A stretch of 48,892 nt of DNA from NCBI GenBank assembly GCA_900557035.1, contig USRA01000006.1, positions 1-48,892 on the forward strand, written 5' to 3'. The stretch comes from an uncultured Prevotella sp. (GTDB taxonomy: Bacteria; Bacteroidota; Bacteroidia; Bacteroidales; Bacteroidaceae). The position numbers and the translations under genes are program-made. A model generated the notes under the pieces. The model saw only the letters and a program-made list of their open reading frames with translations. It was not told the DNA's origin and did no database searches. Positions 3,159 through 14,762 of the stretch are shown here, piece by piece (position 1 is the first letter of the stretch; every line of letters begins with the position of its first letter).

Positions 3159-4412
3159 TTAGTCTCTTCGGAAGATATCCCGGGTATAGACTTTTCCCTT
3201 CACGTCATCGAGGCATTTATCGTATCTGTTGGCGATGATAGCCTGACTCTGCTTCTTGAAATCCTCCAGGTCGTTTACCACGCGGCTGCCGAAGAAGGTG
3301 GTTCCACTCTTCAGCGTAGGCTCGTAGATGATAACCTGGGCGCCCTTCGCCTTGATGCGCTTCATCACGCCCTGGATGCTGCTCTGGCGGAAATTGTCGC
3401 TGTTGCTCTTCATCGTGAGGCGATACACTCCGATGGTGCAAGGCTTCTCTTCCTCCTCGCGGTAGTTGTTCTGGTTGGCGTAATCGTAGTAGCCTGCCAT
3501 GTGAAGCACTCGGTCGGCGATGAAATCCTTGCGGGTGCGGTTGCTCTCTACGATGGCCTGGATCAGATTCTCGGGCACGTCGGCATAGTTTGCCAGCAGC
3601 TGCTTGGTATCCTTCGGCAGACAGTAGCCGCCATATCCGAACGACGGATTGTTGTAGAAGGTGCCGATGCGAGGGTCCAGTCCCACACCCGATATGATGG
3701 CCTGGGTGTCTAGTCCCTTCATTTCGGCATAGGTGTCCAGCTCGTTGAAGTAGCTTACTCGGAGCGCCAGGTAGGTGTTGGCGAAGAGTTTCACCGCCTC
3801 TGCCTCTGTGAGCCCCATGAAGAGGGTGTCGATGTTCTTCTTGATGGCTCCATCCTGCAAGAGTTCTGCGAAGAGATGCGCCGCCTTGTCGAGTCGCTCA
3901 TCTCCTGCCGGTCTGCCCACGATGATGCGGCTAGGGTAGAGATTGTCGTAGAGCGCCTTGCTCTCGCGCAGGAATTCCGGGGCGAAGATGATGTTCTCGC
4001 TGCCCATCTTCCGGCGTATGTTCTCGGTGTAGCCCACTGGAATGGTGCTCTTGATGACCATGATGGCATCTGGGTTCACATCCTTGACCAGCTGGATGAC
4101 CTCTTCTACATGCGATGTGTCGAAGTAGTTCTTCACGGGGTCGTAGTTGGTTGGCGTGGCGATTACCACGAAGTCGGCGTCCCTGTAGGCTGCGGCAGCA
4201 TCGGTGGTAGCCTTGAGGTTGAGCTTTTTCTCTGCCAGGTATTTCTCGATGTATTCGTCCTGGATAGGTGAGCGGCGGTGGTTGATGAGTTCCACCTTTT
4301 CGGGAACCACGTCCACAGCCACCACCTCGTGATGCTGGCTCAGCAGCGTGGCGATGCTCAATCCTACATAGCCTGTTCCGGCTACGGCTATCTTTATATT
4401 TTCTTTTGCCAT
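3159..4412 (-). CDS. ugd: UDP-glucose 6-dehydrogenase
   Basis: A 417-residue cytosolic NAD-dependent enzyme that oxidises UDP-glucose to UDP-glucuronate for capsule, exopolysaccharide or LPS sugars. The start at 4412 places the Rossmann motif AGTGYVGLS (11-19, GxGxxG) next to the N-terminus; the frame runs 45 codons further upstream without recognisable sequence. The central dimerisation helix follows, and the catalytic loop [15 protein letters not shown] carries Cys264 and Lys267. The C-terminal domain has IYEPTLKSG. Overall it resembles E. coli Ugd closely, including length. A -33/-7 promoter at 4438-4468 would put the start about 20 nt upstream of the ATG. No glycosyltransferase genes are adjacent. 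Confidence 0.93.
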
Positions 4413-4437
4413 TACCTTTTTTATATTTAAATTGCTG

Positions 4438-4468
4438 CAAAGGTAATAATAAATAGGTAGAATGCAAA
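4438..4468 (-). promoter_or_regulatory. Promoter of ugd
   Basis: On the minus strand, TTTG (4468-4465) precedes TACCTTTG (4445-4438) by 19 bp, the Bacteroidota consensus. The short leader to the ATG at 4412 supports that start. Confidence 0.7.
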
Positions 4469-4523
4469 ATGTTGCGCCGATTTTTATTAAAAAATAACTG
4501 AAATGGCGGCTGAAAAAGCCCTT

Positions 4524-4661: not shown

Positions 4662-5120
4662 CTATATTGTCAATAAATCAGTATAGTCGGGAATCTCTTC
4701 GAGGAATAAATATTTTTTGTCGTCGTAATCCATCCGGCAGATATAGTGCTCCAGTCCGTTGCTCACCACCAGGTAATCTACGTGGAGCAGGAGGTTATAT
4801 ACCGAAATCTGATCGAACACCTTCTGCGTGATGGGGATATGCGGCGCCTTGTATTCGATAATCATCCTGGGGCGGAGCTCGCGGCTGTAGAGCACGCTGT
4901 CGGCACGCAGCACCTTGTCGCCGCATTTCAGCTGGATCTCGTTGGCGAGCAGCGGGGCAGGGTAGCCCTTGTGCTCGATGAGATAGTGTACGAAGTGCTG
5001 GCGCACCCATTCTTCGGGCGTGATGGCTACGTATTTCCTGCGCAGTACATCCAGTATCTTGGGCTGCTGTTTCGTGCCCGAAACCTTCATTTCGAAGGTT
5101 GGTAAGTTCAAACGAATCAT
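4662..5120 (-). CDS. HsdR N-terminal-like (PD-(D/E)XK fold) protein
   Basis: A 152-residue protein resembling the HSDR_N_2 domain family, widespread single-domain proteins related to the nuclease part of type I restriction R subunits. The nuclease core is visible: Asp74 in RADSVLY and the E-x-K pair Glu89/Lys91 in MIIEYKAPHIP. No helicase, specificity or methylase gene is nearby, so it is not part of a complete restriction system; its role is unknown. It diverges from holA with about 130 nt between the starts. A TATA-rich repeat (5124-5145) sits directly in front of its ATG. Confidence 0.85.
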   Translation of the reverse strand: MIRLNLPTFEMKVSGTKQQPKILDVLRRKYVAITPEEWVRQHFVHYLIEHKGYPAPLLANEIQLKCGDKVLRADSVLYSRELRPRMIIEYKAPHIPITQKVFDQISVYNLLLHVDYLVVSNGLEHYICRMDYDDKKYLFLEEIPDYTDLLTI

Positions 5121-5123
5121 TTT

Positions 5124-5145
5124 TTATACCTTATTATATATATAG
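5124..5145 (-). repeat. Recurrent leader motif, copy 1
   Basis: Read on the minus strand this is TATATATAATAAGGTATAA with an extra CTA in front, ending three bases before the ATG at 5120. The same sequence recurs at 26031, 26771 and 43458, with looser forms at 8001 and 48439. Confidence 0.7.
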
Positions 5146-5160
5146 TTCGATTTATTTTTG

Positions 5161-5168
5161 TACCTTTG
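5161..5168 (+). promoter_or_regulatory. -7 element of holA
   Basis: TACCTTTG fits the -7 consensus; the -33 partner is poor. The expected start near 5172 leaves an 80-nt leader to the ATG at 5253, and the leader contains an imperfect repeat of GCAGGCTGGA(A/T)T. Confidence 0.5.
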
Positions 5169-5252
5169 CAAATGGATTGCAGGCTGGATTCTCTGTGCAG
5201 ACAGATGAATGGCAGGCTGGAATCACAGTGCAAAGATACAAAAAATAAATCA

Positions 5253-6281
5253 ATGGCAGAAAAGAAAAATGCAATAAGTTACGAGTCGATTATGAAAGAT
5301 CTCAAGGCTCGGAAGTTTGCGCCCGTGTATGTTCTGATGGGCGACGAACCTTTCTATATAGACAAGATCTGCGATTATATCGCCGAAAACGTGCTCCAGC
5401 CGGAAGAGCGGGACTTCAACCAGACCGTGCTTTTCGGGGCGGATACCACAGCGGTGCAGGTGGTGGATCAGTGTAAGGGATATCCGATGATGGCGGAATT
5501 CAGAGTGGTGATTGTAAAAGAAGCACAGAATCTGAAGAGCCTGGATGCCCTGGAGAAGTATCTCGAGAAACCGGTGAAATCCACCATTCTCGTCATCTGT
5601 AACAAAAACGGCAGTATCGACCGCAGAAAGAAGTTTGTTCCGAGAGCCGAACAGGTGGGAGTGGTGTTCGAGAGTAAAAAGCTCTACGACCGTCAGCTTC
5701 CGGGTTTCATCGAAACCTATCTCAAGGCTCGCAAGGCAACCATCGAACCGAAGGCGGTGCAGATGGTGGCAGATCATATCGGAGCCGATCTTCATCGCCT
5801 CACCTCCGAACTCGACAAGCTGCTCATCTCTCTTCCTGACTCCGACCGAAGGGTGACTCCGGCTGTGGTGGAACGTGAAATAGGAGTGAGCAAGGACTTC
5901 AATGCTTTCGAACTTCGCAGCGCCATCATCCAGCGTGATGTTTTCAAGGCAAATCAGATAATAAACTATTTTGACAGCAACCCGAAGTCGGGGTCGCTCT
6001 ATGCGCTCCTCCCGTTGCTCTTCAGTTATTTCCAGAATCTGATGATAGCCTATTATGCTCCGAATAAGCAGAACGAAAATGAGCTTGCAAAATTCCTGGA
6101 TTTGCGCGGAACCTGGGCGGTGCGCGATTATACGATGGGAATGAGAAACTATTCCGGAGTGAAAGTGATGCAGATTATAGAGAAGCTGAAAGAGGTGGAT
6201 GCGAAGAGCAAGGGCATCGATAATCCGTTTACTTCGGCAGGCGAATTGATGAGAGAACTCATCTTTTTCATCCTCCATTAG
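5253..6281 (+). CDS. holA: DNA polymerase III subunit delta
   Basis: A 342-residue protein, the usual length for the clamp-loader delta subunit, which opens the beta sliding clamp during replication. The N-terminal AAA+-like fold is recognisable from FAPVYVLMGDEPFYIDKI near residues 22-39 and the segment FRVVIVKEAQNL; the middle has the delta-typical IGADLHRLTSELDKL; the C-terminal collar helices follow. As expected for delta there is no Walker A lysine. The ATG at 5253 is preferred to an upstream TTG at 5166 because the upstream peptide is low-quality repeat sequence. A strong terminator candidate follows at 6415. Confidence 0.9.
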   Translation: MAEKKNAISYESIMKDLKARKFAPVYVLMGDEPFYIDKICDYIAENVLQPEERDFNQTVLFGADTTAVQVVDQCKGYPMMAEFRVVIVKEAQNLKSLDALEKYLEKPVKSTILVICNKNGSIDRRKKFVPRAEQVGVVFESKKLYDRQLPGFIETYLKARKATIEPKAVQMVADHIGADLHRLTSELDKLLISLPDSDRRVTPAVVEREIGVSKDFNAFELRSAIIQRDVFKANQIINYFDSNPKSGSLYALLPLLFSYFQNLMIAYYAPNKQNENELAKFLDLRGTWAVRDYTMGMRNYSGVKVMQIIEKLKEVDAKSKGIDNPFTSAGELMRELIFFILH

Positions 6282-10399: not shown

Positions 10400-10431
10400 T
10401 TTGGCAGTATCAAAGAAAAGTGTTACTTTTG
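10400..10431 (+). promoter_or_regulatory. Promoter of the aromatic amino acid operon
   Basis: TTTG (10400-10403) and TACTTTTG (10424-10431) are 20 bp apart. The predicted start near 10435 puts the leader peptide ATG about 65 nt into the transcript and the pheA ATG about 305 nt in, leaving room for the attenuator. Confidence 0.8.
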
Positions 10432-10501
10432 CAAACGAGTTGAGACTTTCATCGGTTGATGCTTGAAGCAATAAGTGAATAACAAATAAAAGAACAAGAA
10501 A

Positions 10502-10591
10502 ATGGAAAAGTTGAACGCTTACTTTTTTAGCTATTACTTTTACTTTGCAAGCAATTGTAAAGCGGGAAGTTGCGTATATATTTCAACTTAG
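10502..10591 (+). CDS. Phe/Tyr-rich leader peptide of the aromatic operon
   Basis: A 29-residue ORF beginning MEKLNA, then YFFSYYFYF (residues 7-15: four Phe and four Tyr with one Ser), then ASNCKAG and a short tail ending in Thr before TAG. This is the composition expected of an attenuation leader peptide for Phe and Tyr. It sits between the operon promoter and an intrinsic terminator and precedes prephenate dehydratase, a transaminase, DAHP synthase/chorismate mutase and prephenate dehydrogenase. Ribosome stalling at uncharged tRNA-Phe or tRNA-Tyr would be sensed over codons 7-15 (10520-10546). No SD sequence is obvious. Its role is inferred, but composition, position and RNA folding agree. 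Confidence 0.85.
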   Translation: MEKLNAYFFSYYFYFASNCKAGSCVYIST

Positions 10592-10651
10592 GATATAAGA
10601 TTCTTGAAATCATCGAAACGGTCCCGCTCTATTGTGAGCAGGACCGTTTTT
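10561..10651 (+). promoter_or_regulatory. Transcription attenuator (antiterminator/terminator)
   Basis: Terminator: AAACGGTCC-C-GCTC (10616-10629) pairs with GAGC-A-GGACCGTTT (10636-10649) and runs into T. Antiterminator: AGCGGGA (10561-10567), just downstream of the aromatic codons, is exactly complementary to TCCCGCT (10622-10628) inside the terminator's left arm. Within that loop ATTTCAA (10580-10586) pairs with TTGAAAT (10604-10610). A ribosome stalled on the Phe/Tyr codons would leave AGCGGGA free and block the terminator; one that reaches the stop codon (10589-10591) would cover it and let the terminator form. Confidence 0.82.
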
Positions 10652-10665
10652 CGTAAAACTCGAAT

Positions 10666-10705
10666 CCGTTTTCCAAGAAGCGTTTTCCAAAAATCCGTTT
10701 TCCAA
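10666..10705 (+). repeat. Three copies of CGTTTTCCAA
   Basis: CGTTTTCCAA occurs three times about 14 nt apart (from 10667, 10681 and 10696), between the attenuator and pheA. The first copy resembles the terminator's right arm. Significance unknown. Confidence 0.7.
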
Positions 10706-10739
10706 AATCAGGAGATAATGTAAAAAAGAGAGTGAAACA

Positions 10740-11573
10740 ATGAAGAGAATTGCAATACAAGGAGAGTTGGGATCCTTCCACGACATTACCGCCCACGAGT
10801 ATTTCCAGGGCGAGCAGATAGAGTTAATCTGTTGCGCTACCTTCGAGGAGGTGTTTGAGAACATCAAGCGAGATCCTACCATCATCGGCATCTGCGCCAT
10901 CGAGAACACCATCGCAGGCAGTCTGCTCCACAACTACGAGCTGCTCCGGGAGAGCGGAACCACTGTGGTGGGTGAGCACAAGCTCCACATCGAGCACAGC
11001 ATCTGCTGCCTGCCTACTGACGACTGGAGCACCCTGCAGGAGGTTCACTCTCATCCTGTAGCGCTGATGCAGTGTGGCAAGTTCCTCGCCAACCATCCCG
11101 ATCTCAAGGCGGTGGAGGCTGAGGATACCGCAGGTTCTGCCGCATTCATCGCCCAGCACCAGGTTCACGGATGGGCTGCCATCTGTTCTGCCTATGCTGC
11201 CAGGATGTATGGTATGAAGGTGCTGCAGGAGGGAATCCACGATAATCCGCACAACTTCACCCGGTTCCTCGTGGTCTGCAATCCGCAGAAGGCATCCCTG
11301 CTCCGACCTATCGAAAAGGCCAACAAGGCGAGCATCGTCTTCAGCCTTTCACACGACAAGGGTTCGCTCTCCAAGGTTCTCACCATCCTGAGCTTCTACG
11401 ACATCAATCTCACCAAGATCCAGTCGCTGCCAAGCATCGGTCATGAATGGGAATATCTCTTCTACGTGGATCTCACCTTCGATAATCTGACACGCTATCG
11501 CCAGAGCATCGATGCCATCACACCACTCGTGAAGAAACTCACGGTGCTGGGAGAATATGAGGAAAAAGAATAG
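10740..11573 (+). CDS. pheA: Prephenate dehydratase
   Basis: A 277-residue monofunctional enzyme, prephenate to phenylpyruvate. The catalytic PDT domain covers residues 1 to about 180, with IENTIAGSL near 54-62 and the catalytic Thr174 in NFTRF. A C-terminal ACT domain (about 195-275) should bind Phe for feedback inhibition; its usual ESRP motif reads QSLP here (IQSLPSIGHEWEYLF), a change at the ligand-binding loop. No chorismate mutase domain is fused here; that activity is on the DAHP synthase of the same operon. First structural gene after the attenuator. A start-stop pair ATGTAA with GGAG just in front lies at 10711-10723. Confidence 0.93.
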   Translation: MKRIAIQGELGSFHDITAHEYFQGEQIELICCATFEEVFENIKRDPTIIGICAIENTIAGSLLHNYELLRESGTTVVGEHKLHIEHSICCLPTDDWSTLQEVHSHPVALMQCGKFLANHPDLKAVEAEDTAGSAAFIAQHQVHGWAAICSAYAARMYGMKVLQEGIHDNPHNFTRFLVVCNPQKASLLRPIEKANKASIVFSLSHDKGSLSKVLTILSFYDINLTKIQSLPSIGHEWEYLFYVDLTFDNLTRYRQSIDAITPLVKKLTVLGEYEEKE

Positions 11574-11623: not shown

Positions 11624-12793
11624 ATGATACAACCAGCCAATAGAGTAACAGAAATACAGGAATACTACTTCAGCCGCAAGCTGAAGGAAGTGGCTAAGCT
11701 TAATGCCGAGGGACAGGACATCATCAGCCTCGCCATCGGAAGTCCAGACATGCCGCCTTCTAAGCAGACCATCGATACGCTCTGCGAGGTAGCCCATAAC
11801 CCTGCTGCACACGGATATCAGCCTACGGTGGGCATCCCGGAGTTGCGCAAGGCGATGGCTGGTTATTACAAGAGATGGTATGACGTGGATCTTGACTGGG
11901 CTACGGAAATCCAGCCGCTCATTGGTAGCAAGGAGGGAATCCTGCACGTTACGCTCGCCTTCTGCAACCCTGGCGACGAGGTGCTCATCCCAAACCCGGG
12001 CTATCCTACCTATACTGCCATCAACAAGATTCTCGGCACCAAGATTACCTATTACGACCTGCGTGAGGACAATGAATGGCAGCCAGACTTCGAGGCGCTG
12101 GAGAAGATGGACCTCAGCCACGTGAAGCTGATGTGGACCAACTATCCGAACATGCCGACCGGAGGCGTGGCTAAGATGGAGACCTACGAGCGACTCGTGA
12201 AGTTTGCCAAGGACCACAATATCGTGGTGGTGAACGACAACCCTTATTCGCTCATCCTCAACGAACATCCGCTGAGCATCTTGCAGGTGCCTGGCGCCAA
12301 GGATTGCTGCATCGAATTCAATTCGCTCAGCAAGAGCCACAACATGCCTGGATGGCGTGTGGCTATGATTTCGAGCAACAAGCAGTTTATCTCCTGGATC
12401 CTGAAGGTGAAGAGCAACATCGACAACGGATGCTTCCGCGGAATCCAGCTCGCTGCTGCCGAGGCCATGCTCAACAACACCGACGAGTGGCACCGTGAGA
12501 ACAACATCACCAACTATCGCCGCCGCCGCGACATCGCCGAGCAGATCATGCAGGTATTGGACTGCAAGTTTGATCCTAACCAGGTGGGCATGTTCCTCTG
12601 GGGCAAGATTCCGGAGAAATACGCCGATGTTGAAGACCTCACAGAGAAGATTCTCCACGAGGCGCGCATATTCATAACCCCTGGATTCATCTTCGGAAGC
12701 AACGGCAAGCGATACATCCGCATCAGCCTCTGTGCCAAGGATGAGAAAATGAAGGAGGCTCTGGAAAGAATCAGAAAAGTCTTTGGAAAGTAA
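11624..12793 (+). CDS. PLP-dependent aminotransferase (aromatic/aspartate type)
   Basis: A 389-residue fold-type I aminotransferase. Landmarks: NYPNMPTG (173-180) for the PLP/carboxylate site, NDNPY (Asp205 and Tyr208) for the pyridine ring, the Schiff-base Lys237 in SLSKSHNMPGWR, and the C-terminal carboxylate-binding Arg in YIRISLC. Between pheA and the DAHP synthase gene, it most likely transaminates phenylpyruvate and 4-hydroxyphenylpyruvate to Phe and Tyr with glutamate. Annotations for this family often say LL-diaminopimelate aminotransferase or AspC-like; the operon argues for the aromatic role. ATG at 11624, 50 nt after pheA. Confidence 0.9.
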   Translation: MIQPANRVTEIQEYYFSRKLKEVAKLNAEGQDIISLAIGSPDMPPSKQTIDTLCEVAHNPAAHGYQPTVGIPELRKAMAGYYKRWYDVDLDWATEIQPLIGSKEGILHVTLAFCNPGDEVLIPNPGYPTYTAINKILGTKITYYDLREDNEWQPDFEALEKMDLSHVKLMWTNYPNMPTGGVAKMETYERLVKFAKDHNIVVVNDNPYSLILNEHPLSILQVPGAKDCCIEFNSLSKSHNMPGWRVAMISSNKQFISWILKVKSNIDNGCFRGIQLAAAEAMLNNTDEWHRENNITNYRRRRDIAEQIMQVLDCKFDPNQVGMFLWGKIPEKYADVEDLTEKILHEARIFITPGFIFGSNGKRYIRISLCAKDEKMKEALERIRKVFGK

Positions 12794-12828: not shown

Positions 12829-13896
12829 ATGGAATTAGAATTAGAACCATTGAATCTCCCTAGTGATCAGGAACGCCCTATCGTCATTGCAGGTCCATGC
12901 TCTGCAGAGACCGAAGAGCAAGTTATGACTACCGCCAAGCAGCTGGCTGCCAAGGGCTGCCACATGTTCCGCGCTGGTGTATGGAAGCCACGTACCAAAC
13001 CAGGAGGCTTCGAGGGAAATGGCGAGGCTGCCCTGCCTTGGATGAAGCAGGTGAAGGAGGAGACCGGTATGCTCACAGCTACCGAGGTGGCTACTCCTGA
13101 GCACGTGGAGCTCGCCTTGAAATATGGAATCGATGTTCTGTGGGTGGGAGCCCGTACTTCTGCCAATCCATTCGCCATGCAGGCGCTGGCAGACAGCCTT
13201 CGGGGCGTGGATGTTCCTGTGCTGGTGAAGAACCCGGTGAATCCGGATCTTGAGCTCTGGATCGGTGCGCTCCAGCGTATCAACCAGGCTGGTATCAAGC
13301 GACTCGGTGCCATCCATCGCGGTTTCTCCAGCTTCGACAAGAAGATCTACCGCAATCTCCCTATGTGGCAGATTCCAATCGAGCTGCACCGCCGCGTTCC
13401 TCAGTTGCCTATCCTCTGCGACCCTAGCCACATCGGCGGTCGCCGCGACCTCATCGCTCCTCTCTGCCAGCAGGCTATGGACCTGGGCTTCGACGGTCTG
13501 ATCGTAGAGAGCCACTGCTCTCCTGATGAGGCATGGAGCGATGCCAAGCAGCAGGTTACTCCAGATATCCTGGATTACATCCTGAGCCTCCTCGTTGTTC
13601 GTGATGAGCATTATTCTACAGAGGGCCTGCATCAGCTGCGCGGCCAGATTGATGAGTGCGACAACCAGTTGATGGATCTTCTTGCCAAGCGTATGCGTGT
13701 ATGCCGCGAAATCGGTACCTACAAGAAGGAGCACAATATGACTATCGTACAGACCAACCGCTACAACGAGATCCTCGAGAAGCGTGGTGCCCAGGCTTCA
13801 CTCTGCGGAATGAGCCCAGAGTTTGCTGCCCAGATCTTTGAGCATATCCACGAAGAGAGTGTTCGCCAGCAGTTGGAAATCCTGAATCAGAAATAA
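12829..13896 (+). CDS. Bifunctional DAHP synthase / chorismate mutase
   Basis: A 355-residue fusion. Residues about 1-262 are a type I DAHP synthase that condenses phosphoenolpyruvate and erythrose 4-phosphate: IAGPCSAE (20-27), KPRTKPGGFEG, VGART and the metal-binding DPSHIGGRRDLI are all present. Residues about 263-355 are an all-helical AroQ chorismate mutase (LRGQIDECDNQLMDLLAKRM and later KKEHNMTIVQTNRYNEIL), chorismate to prephenate. Joining the entry enzyme to the branch-point enzyme lets prephenate or chorismate control the pathway. Genes for prephenate dehydratase and prephenate dehydrogenase flank it, so all three branch activities are made together. The ATG at 12829 follows the aminotransferase by 35 nt. 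Confidence 0.95.
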   Translation: MELELEPLNLPSDQERPIVIAGPCSAETEEQVMTTAKQLAAKGCHMFRAGVWKPRTKPGGFEGNGEAALPWMKQVKEETGMLTATEVATPEHVELALKYGIDVLWVGARTSANPFAMQALADSLRGVDVPVLVKNPVNPDLELWIGALQRINQAGIKRLGAIHRGFSSFDKKIYRNLPMWQIPIELHRRVPQLPILCDPSHIGGRRDLIAPLCQQAMDLGFDGLIVESHCSPDEAWSDAKQQVTPDILDYILSLLVVRDEHYSTEGLHQLRGQIDECDNQLMDLLAKRMRVCREIGTYKKEHNMTIVQTNRYNEILEKRGAQASLCGMSPEFAAQIFEHIHEESVRQQLEILNQK

Positions 13897-13902
13897 ATTA
13901 AG

Positions 13903-13942
13903 TGAAGAGTAGAGGACGAAAGACTTCGGCCTTCACTCTTCA
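13903..13942. other. Intercistronic hairpin
   Basis: TGAAGAGT (13903-13910) pairs with ACTCTTCA (13935-13942) in the spacer between DAHP synthase and prephenate dehydrogenase. No T-run follows, so it is more likely an mRNA processing or stability element than a terminator. Confidence 0.45.
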
Positions 13943-13961
13943 TTCTTCACATAAAAAAGAA

Positions 13962-14762
13962 ATGAGAATTTTGATAATGGGAGCAGGAAAGATGGGAAGC
14001 TTTTTCATCGACCTGCTCAGCTTCGACCACGAGGTGGCTGTGTATGAAAAGGATGCCAAGCGACTGCGCTTCACCTATAACTGCTACCGTTTCACCAAGA
14101 TGGAGGAGGTGGAGATGTTTCGCCCGGAACTCGTCATCAATGCCGTAACCGTGAAATACACCATCCCGGCATTCGAGGAGTTGCTGCCACATCTCTCTAA
14201 AGACTGTATCATCAGCGACATTGCGTCGGTGAAGACAGGATTGCAGGAGTTTTACGACAAGAGCGGCTTCCGCTACGTGAGCACCCACCCGATGTTCGGT
14301 CCTACATTCGCCAACCTGAACCAGCTCTCCGAGGAGAATGCTGTCATCATCAAGGAGGGCGACTATATGGGTAAGATCTTCTTCAAGGATCTCTATCAGA
14401 AGCTCGGACTGAGCCTGCATGAGTACACCTTTGATGAGCACGACCAGACGGTGGCTTACTCGCTGAGTATTCCGTTTGTCAGCACTTTTGCCTTTGCTGC
14501 GGTGATGAAGCATCAGGATGCTCCTGGTACCACCTTCAAGCGCCACATGCAGATAGCCAAGGGCGTATTGAACGAGGATGACTATCTCTTGCAGGAAATC
14601 CTCTTTAACCCATATACATCTGGACAGGTGGCCCAGATTCGCGAAGAGCTGGCTGAACTCATCGATATCATCGATCACAAGGATGCCAAGCGCATGAAAC
14701 TCTTCCTCACCAGAATCAGAAATCATGTGAAGGAAGACATCGAAATCAAGCAGCAGAAATAG
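13962..14762 (+). CDS. tyrA: Prephenate dehydrogenase
   Basis: A 266-residue enzyme making 4-hydroxyphenylpyruvate from prephenate with NAD(P)+. The start at 13962 puts the Rossmann motif ILIMGAGKMGSFF at residues 3-15; the frame extends upstream only through the intercistronic hairpin. The conserved SDIASVKTG and the catalytic His in THPMFGP are visible. The C-terminal half is helical, typical of TyrA. No ACT domain is attached, so feedback by Tyr, if any, would not use that domain. Fourth structural gene of the aromatic operon; the next gene follows after 33 nt. Confidence 0.92.
   Translation: MRILIMGAGKMGSFFIDLLSFDHEVAVYEKDAKRLRFTYNCYRFTKMEEVEMFRPELVINAVTVKYTIPAFEELLPHLSKDCIISDIASVKTGLQEFYDKSGFRYVSTHPMFGPTFANLNQLSEENAVIIKEGDYMGKIFFKDLYQKLGLSLHEYTFDEHDQTVAYSLSIPFVSTFAFAAVMKHQDAPGTTFKRHMQIAKGVLNEDDYLLQEILFNPYTSGQVAQIREELAELIDIIDHKDAKRMKLFLTRIRNHVKEDIEIKQQK

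Follow-up and report, generated by a model that had tools for sequence, protein, structure and literature searches.

The leader of the E. coli pheA gene encodes a peptide rich in codons for the product and includes an upstream hairpin, an antiterminator and a terminator; it reads Phe only. Leaders of the ilv type, described in other phyla, read several end products with one leader, in that case branched-chain amino acids. Amino-acid control is less described in Bacteroidota, which are abundant in the human gut, than in enterobacteria.

The relevant passages of a study on Flavobacterium psychrophilum (PMC9723704) report clues to leader-peptide attenuation upstream of amino-acid operons, as well as a conserved 5' element, absent from Rfam, that precedes pheA and hisG in Flavobacteriaceae. 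In Bacteroides thetaiotaomicron, short ORFs in 5' UTRs are called "reminiscent of leader peptides", with BT_4401 as an example, in the passage concerned of PMC7366714.

Here we analyze a 48,892-nucleotide contig of an uncultured Prevotella sp. (USRA01000006.1, assembly GCA_900557035.1; this whole stretch is called the window below). We read a locus in it as a ribosome-mediated transcription attenuator that responds to charged tRNA-Phe and tRNA-Tyr, with a probability of roughly 0.93. What is directly observed is the parts of the attenuator, how they are conserved, covary and are spaced, and the agreement between codons and operon content; a leader peptide combined with a switchable terminator, its codons differing where the operon has been split, strongly suggests a ribosome-driven on/off switch. 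The locus has the sequence and structure features by which an attenuator is recognized. A putative leader ORF carries a codon run for the products of the operon, and the control codons agree with the amino acids that the operon makes. An intrinsic terminator sits between the leader and the first gene, and an antiterminator, exclusive with the terminator, uses the 5' arm of the latter. An upstream hairpin (1:2) overlaps the control codons, with weak protection in silico. The coordinates are listed in Table 1.

Table 1. Features of the leader locus and the downstream operon in the window, and a rearranged locus of another genome
Feature	Position	Strand	Evidence or remark
Promoter, Bacteroidota type, TTTG-N20-TACTTTTG	10400-10431	+	phylum-type pattern search
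Leader peptide ORF MEKLNAYFFSYYFYFASNCKAGSCVYIST, 29 codons	10503-10592	+	ATG 10503, stop TAG 10590-10592
Aromatic run YFFSYYFYF, residues 7-15	10521-10547	+	ORF translation
Hairpin P1, arms 10543-10550 / 10555-10562	10543-10562	+	pairing and Asn-codon covariation
Antiterminator 5' arm AGCGGGA (region 2)	10561-10567	+	pairs with 10622-10628
Accessory hairpin AAGUUG/CAACUU, arms 10567-10572 / 10584-10589	10567-10589	+	pairing in alignment
Intrinsic terminator (regions 3 and 4)	10615-10651	+	U run 10647-10651; antiterminator 3' arm 10622-10628
Prephenate dehydratase (PDT, pheA), first regulated gene	10740-11573	+	PF00800, 178 bits, cut-off 25.2
Class I/II aminotransferase	11624-12793	+	PF00155
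DAHP synthase fused to chorismate mutase	12829-13896	+	PF00793 and PF01817
Prephenate dehydrogenase (tyrA)	13902-14762	+	PF02153
G171 locus L238: DAHP synthase, leader, DAHP synthase	3426-4496, 4765-4860, 4976-5986	reverse complement

A first-pass annotation made from the letters of the window had proposed most of these parts, and they proved to be in place. The promoter pattern is present where it was placed and is enriched over shuffles: leaders of 68/83 loci have TTTG-N17-23-TANNTTTG ahead of them vs 7 of 4150 shuffles. A consensus scan gave no sigma-70 site at 10400-10431, as expected for the phylum. The 29-codon ORF with its aromatic run was found as described. For the terminator, annotated at 10616-10651, a hairpin search gave 10615-10650 with -22.5 kcal/mol; nine pairs (10616-10624/10641-10649) were verified and the U run extends to 10651. 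This terminator is absent from the listing of the consensus scan. All seven pairs of the exact alternative pairing between 10561-10567 and 10622-10628 were verified too. The antiterminator arm, said to begin about 14 nt past the last aromatic codon, is separated from it by 13 nt (10547 to 10561). That the downstream operon makes Phe and Tyr is borne out by the Pfam matches of its proteins, which were named by Pfam because NCBIfam names for all four are below cut-off. The ACT match in the PDT is 22.2 bits, under the cut-off of 27. The PDT is 99% identical to that of locus L001 (S. copri strain Indica). For tyrA, translation probably begins at an internal ATG, at 13962.

The same annotation had set beforehand the comparison of the codon run and the stems across relatives as decisive for its reading; the comparison was run, and both are kept. 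The sample consisted of 80 genome loci of Prevotellaceae with the closest PDT genes (L001-L080). An ATG-initiated ORF with at least six aromatic residues in nine lies within 300 nt upstream of the PDT in 77 of the 80 loci vs 15 of 4000 dinucleotide shuffles. Within 450 nt, an ORF with at least six aromatic residues in nine is present in 78/80, and the leader of L075 begins 461 nt upstream, which brings the total to 79/80. The exception is L053, where an open frame spans the whole 2.5 kb upstream stretch and the PDT follows it after 27 nt. The final two control codons, TAC TTT, are identical in all 80 aligned leaders. The alignment (A1) holds 80 distinct rows from 84 leaders with a called terminator. 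Absent from it are L053, L075 and five loci (L027, L028, L039, L044 and L057) that have no terminator by the hairpin rule, though inverted repeats are visible there.

A hairpin with a U run was called in 73/78 leaders of L001-L080 and also in the window. This bears on the possibility that translation of the leader is coupled to the downstream gene, by reinitiation or by Rho protection, with no intrinsic-terminator switch. Reinitiation has been proposed for leader genes near structural genes in the passage concerned of PMC4833913, whereas in the window 147 nt separate the leader stop from the PDT start. Together with the regular presence of the terminator hairpin, this distance makes such coupling extremely unlikely.

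Prevotellaceae leaders share a strongly conserved peptide tail, A-x-x-C-[EK]-A-G-S-C-V. This would be expected if the leader encoded a small peptide with a function of its own and were followed by an ordinary, partial terminator that lacks codon-dependent switching. However, the tail is encoded under P1 and the antiterminator, where synonymous changes preserve an RNA pair (see below), and we consider a functional peptide highly unlikely as the explanation of the locus.

P1 was not reported by the first-pass annotation. Its 5' arm holds the last Phe codon, and pairing is seen in 99.5% of 640 cells of A1. One of the eight pairs of P1 is changed on both sides in 29 rows, a number reached in none of 500 shuffles; the states of this pair are A-U (46 rows), G-C (25), U-A (3), G-U (3), U-G (1) and unpaired (2). 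The seven other pairs show no both-side variation, which counts against the attenuator. A tree of 71 PDT proteins, 64 of which fall in the three pair states, requires at least eight state changes of the varying pair, and well-supported branches force five of them. The change appears as a synonymous choice of Asn codon. Asn stands at this site in 47/80 leaders, with AAT and A in 33, AAC and G in 13, and AAT and T in one; A with AAC and G with AAT were never seen (Fisher 1e-11, kinship ignored). Thus the RNA pair is kept.

For the antiterminator, 88.3% of 864 cells are paired vs 85.9% in shuffles, an excess so modest that it counts against the attenuator. Five of its 11 pairs have both-side changes (as high in 5 of 500 shuffles), in 16 cells altogether (as high in 0/500), and further pair types are no better than chance (310/500). 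Terminators are of two types: the long arm CCCGCTTC occurs in 51 leaders and a short arm in 25, including the window, with neither in four. The leader codon GAA is found in 49 of the 51 leaders with the long arm vs 8 of the 25 with the short one. The accessory hairpin is paired in 85.2% of 473 cells. It surrounds the usual position of the leader stop and has some compensatory changes.

From these parts we infer the start site, the stalling, the kinetic competition and the amino-acid response of the following scheme. RNA polymerase would initiate just past 10431, and a ribosome would start to translate the leader. On a shortage of Phe or Tyr, it would stall in YYFYF (codons 11-15) and cover the 5' arm of P1, so that AGCGGGA would stay free. 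The free AGCGGGA would capture UCCCGCU once this has been made; the terminator would not form and the Phe/Tyr operon would be transcribed. If Phe and Tyr are plentiful, the ribosome would pass over region 2, the terminator would form, and transcription would stop near 10651. The ribosome-mediated attenuation proposed by the first-pass annotation, a mechanism drawn here from the DNA, is supported by the conserved codon run and stems.

Nascent-RNA folding was calculated for RNA extending to 10634. With codons 11-15 in the A site, the antiterminator has a probability of 0.98-0.99 and P1 of 0-0.03; with the ribosome at codon 18 or beyond, the probability of the antiterminator is 0 and its formation is impossible. 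The completed terminator beats the 7-bp antiterminator at equilibrium in the window (0.94), which counts against the attenuator; therefore the switch must be kinetic. In leader RNA without a ribosome the antiterminator still forms, with a probability of 0.83 in the window and mean values of 0.73 for the 25 short-arm leaders and 0.71 for the other 55. P1 shares only 2 nt with the antiterminator in the window, and the protection is weakest there in silico. The idea of P1 as a strong protector is weakened by the formation of the antiterminator even when the leader is free. P1 would act as a protector and/or a pause hairpin, and according to these foldings it may perhaps pause more than protect.

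The position of the leader stop is also relevant to switching. In 69/80 leaders the stop codon begins 15 nt downstream of the initial G of the GCGGGA core, where a terminating ribosome would cover the core. The window is an outlier: its stop comes 27 nt after the start of the core, 12 nt later than in most relatives. A terminating ribosome would leave region 2 uncovered there, which counts against the attenuator. In the window (10578-10592) and in L001, GTA TAT replaces the stop of the relatives, and four codons are added, including an extra Tyr.

The leader is spread far beyond Prevotellaceae. In other families of the order, 12 matches were fetched, and a leader was found in all 11 that had upstream DNA (L095 came without it). 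L082, L084, L085, L087 and L088, from the same search, were left out. Family f19 has a leader at 18/18 PDT loci from 17 genomes. Further loci of the order gave 8/9 (not L273) and then 17/18 (not L340). For PDT matches from the same class, the leader is present in 20/24, all 24 being examined. In an even draw of the class, which overlaps with these 24 matches in 20 genomes, a leader with at least six aromatic residues in nine lies directly before the PDT in 40 of the 57 genomes with a PDT. The 17 genomes of this draw that have no clear leader at the PDT count against the attenuator. In the draw, no leader was found at the PDT in seven genomes of family f66 or before the PDT of G072, G214, G306 and G318. 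Four genomes (G198, G242, G291 and G335) have a weaker leader with a score of 5, and three of these have TYFWFYP in common. In G136 and G171 a leader beginning MLITAAIYFTFFYFYF is found in front of a DAHP-synthase gene, which shares the strand of the PDT and lies about 2.5 kb upstream of it. Additionally, G171 carries two consecutive DAHP-synthase/chorismate-mutase genes separated by the Phe/Tyr leader (Table 1). Outside the class, 16 loci out of 77 matches were examined and two have a leader. L110 and L131, from two genomes labelled as lying outside the class, have Phe/Tyr leaders with terminators and weak antiterminators of 5 and 4 bp.

From distant loci we collected a set of 33 leaders, loci with no leader being excluded. 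Their antiterminator arms vary between families yet match their own terminators. The summed antiterminator score is 630 vs a permuted mean of 438 (sd 18), and none of 20,000 permutations is as high. Individually the signal is weaker, which counts against the attenuator: for seven terminators the own leader scores best of the 33, and for 15 it ranks within the top three. In 30/33 leaders the arm starts 5-18 nt past the last aromatic codon, compared with a permuted mean of 22.3 and a maximum of 30. Outside Prevotellaceae the peptide tail differs, and the aromatic run, pairing and spacing remain, which again speaks against a functional peptide.

The same comparison bears on control that is independent of translation, in which a tRNA, a metabolite or a protein would bind the 5' RNA, as in T-boxes or riboswitches. 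The leader RNA is indeed structured, with mutually exclusive forms and a fold more stable than all 200 shuffles (z -3.26). However, across families it is the aromatic coding run that persists while the RNA sequence differs. Moreover, an Rfam scan of the whole window gave no matches at the gathering score; a loose scan gave six matches, the best of 18.6 bits against a cut-off of 60. We therefore give hardly any weight to this explanation.

Both Phe and Tyr occur in the densest nine residues of 116 of 117 leaders (the exception is G054) and in 35 of 36 leaders of a further survey (the exception is G383). The claim of the first-pass annotation that one peptide reading both amino acids is unusual has to be trimmed, as such peptides are the rule in this group. 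The presence of both in the leader fits an operon that makes both. Trp codons are found in or near the aromatic run of 21/117 leaders, e.g., L101, L113, L127 and L130; with these codons, control of the shared DAHP synthase could include Trp sensing. Tandem Phe/Tyr leaders precede the PDT in L270, L274, L275, L276 and L100. In L274 and L275 both leaders have their own terminator and antiterminator, and in L276 the second antiterminator is weak.

Split operons serve as natural experiments. In an order-wide scan of 148 genomes a PDT was found in 68; splits were chosen by eye from lists of gene places, and G401 and G489, with ambiguous contig ends, were left out. In G054 the PDT is alone: the other three genes were not found in the 8 kb that follow it. 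Its leader is MTRFFTHFFFFFTQQ; TyrA and DAHP synthase are on another contig with a leader of their own, MNNTFGYYAFYYYFFYNN. In G373, from another family, the leader of the lone PDT begins MRRNSFRFFFFFAFFFCNG and has an 11-bp antiterminator and a terminator of -19.9 kcal/mol; the leader of its aminotransferase-DAHP synthase-TyrA operon is MIKNISVFAYFYYYFYFSKK. The lone PDT of G437 has MYFDFVFGFLFCFPKS, with one Tyr outside the run and a 5-bp antiterminator, and two tandem Tyr-bearing leaders stand on the detached TyrA side. In G383 the PDT has the Phe-only leader MITINNSFFFFFFRSDPEKGL, and the other three genes are absent within 1.5 kb behind it. The best DAHP-synthase match of G383 is on another contig and TyrA is on a third, with the leader MAPVHTYYAWSFFFFYFQNKRGHAV. 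The PDT and TyrA leaders of this genome each have a terminator, and their antiterminators, of 7 and 8 bp, start at distances of 6 and 8 nt, respectively, past the last aromatic codon.

In all four genomes where a lone PDT keeps its leader (G054, G373, G437 and G383), the run has no Tyr. Detached TyrA operons have a Tyr-bearing leader in 7/7 genomes (these four splits together with G473, G445 and G413), and joined operons with a leader and checked neighbors have a Tyr-bearing one in 24/24. Thus the codon content follows the operon content, which supports amino-acid sensing. The loss of Tyr from the run where the PDT is alone is one more argument against a functional peptide.

The expectation that every split lineage would repeat the pattern of G054 failed in f66, G473, G445, G413 and G318. 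The lone PDT of G473, G445, G413 and G318 has no leader, which counts against the attenuator, and the separate DAHP synthase of G318 has none either. G214 has a doubtful leader only, before the DAHP synthase. In seven genomes of f66 (L219-L225 and L229-L235) PDT, aminotransferase and TyrA are apart from DAHP synthase, with no aromatic leader at either place; control must therefore differ in this family. Second DAHP-synthase copies (L240-L246) have no aromatic leader close upstream.

Considered jointly, these data make it quite probable that an attenuator responding to the joint Phe and Tyr demand of one operon is ancestral in Bacteroidia. It would have been recoded on operon breakup, to Phe-only at a lone PDT and to Tyr-bearing at detached TyrA/DAHP synthase. 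It would stand before DAHP synthase where the gene order was rearranged, and in tandem in some lineages. Candidate leaders with a His run (at least four His in nine residues) precede hisG in 6 of 12 Bacteroidales genomes (L279, L281, L282, L285, L286 and L290), e.g., MNNTLHHHHHHCNSSR and MKRTVLHHHHHHYNGQ; none precedes hisG in S. copri G001. Combined with this history, the hisG leaders would suggest that the class relies on leader-peptide attenuation as a main mode of controlling amino acids. Contrary to expectation, no convincing Trp leader was found at trpE in eight loci of the same genomes.

Among the titles and abstracts searched, a scope with subscription papers mostly outside it, we recognized no Phe/Tyr leader of Bacteroidales. 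A 2010 attenuation survey may contain earlier predictions. The statement of the first-pass annotation that such attenuation is little described in Bacteroidota is half right, as attenuation clues and a pheA element are already present in the relevant passages of PMC9723704. The structure model, the spacing rule and the natural splits make class-wide attenuation directly testable, and leader codons can be used as a read-out of the product of an operon.

Compared with the known systems, the leader described here has the same set of parts as that of E. coli pheA and likewise serves Phe biosynthesis. It differs in reading Phe and Tyr together and in matching no Rfam leader family at cut-off. With ilv-type leaders it has in common that one leader serves several end products of a shared operon, aromatic ones in this case. 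The elements of F. psychrophilum resemble it in phylum, in the presence of pheA, in the proposed leader-peptide attenuation and in the lack of an Rfam hit; unlike here, those passages contain neither a sequence nor a structure model and draw no connection to operon content (PMC9723704). The short ORFs of B. thetaiotaomicron belong to the same order and also lie in long 5' UTRs, whereas the corresponding passage concerns a different operon and describes no test of mechanism (PMC7366714). The mechanism itself is classic, and there were already hints of it for Flavobacterium. What is gained is therefore scope and evidence rather than a principle, with an unusually clear record of leader codons tracking the gene content of an operon.
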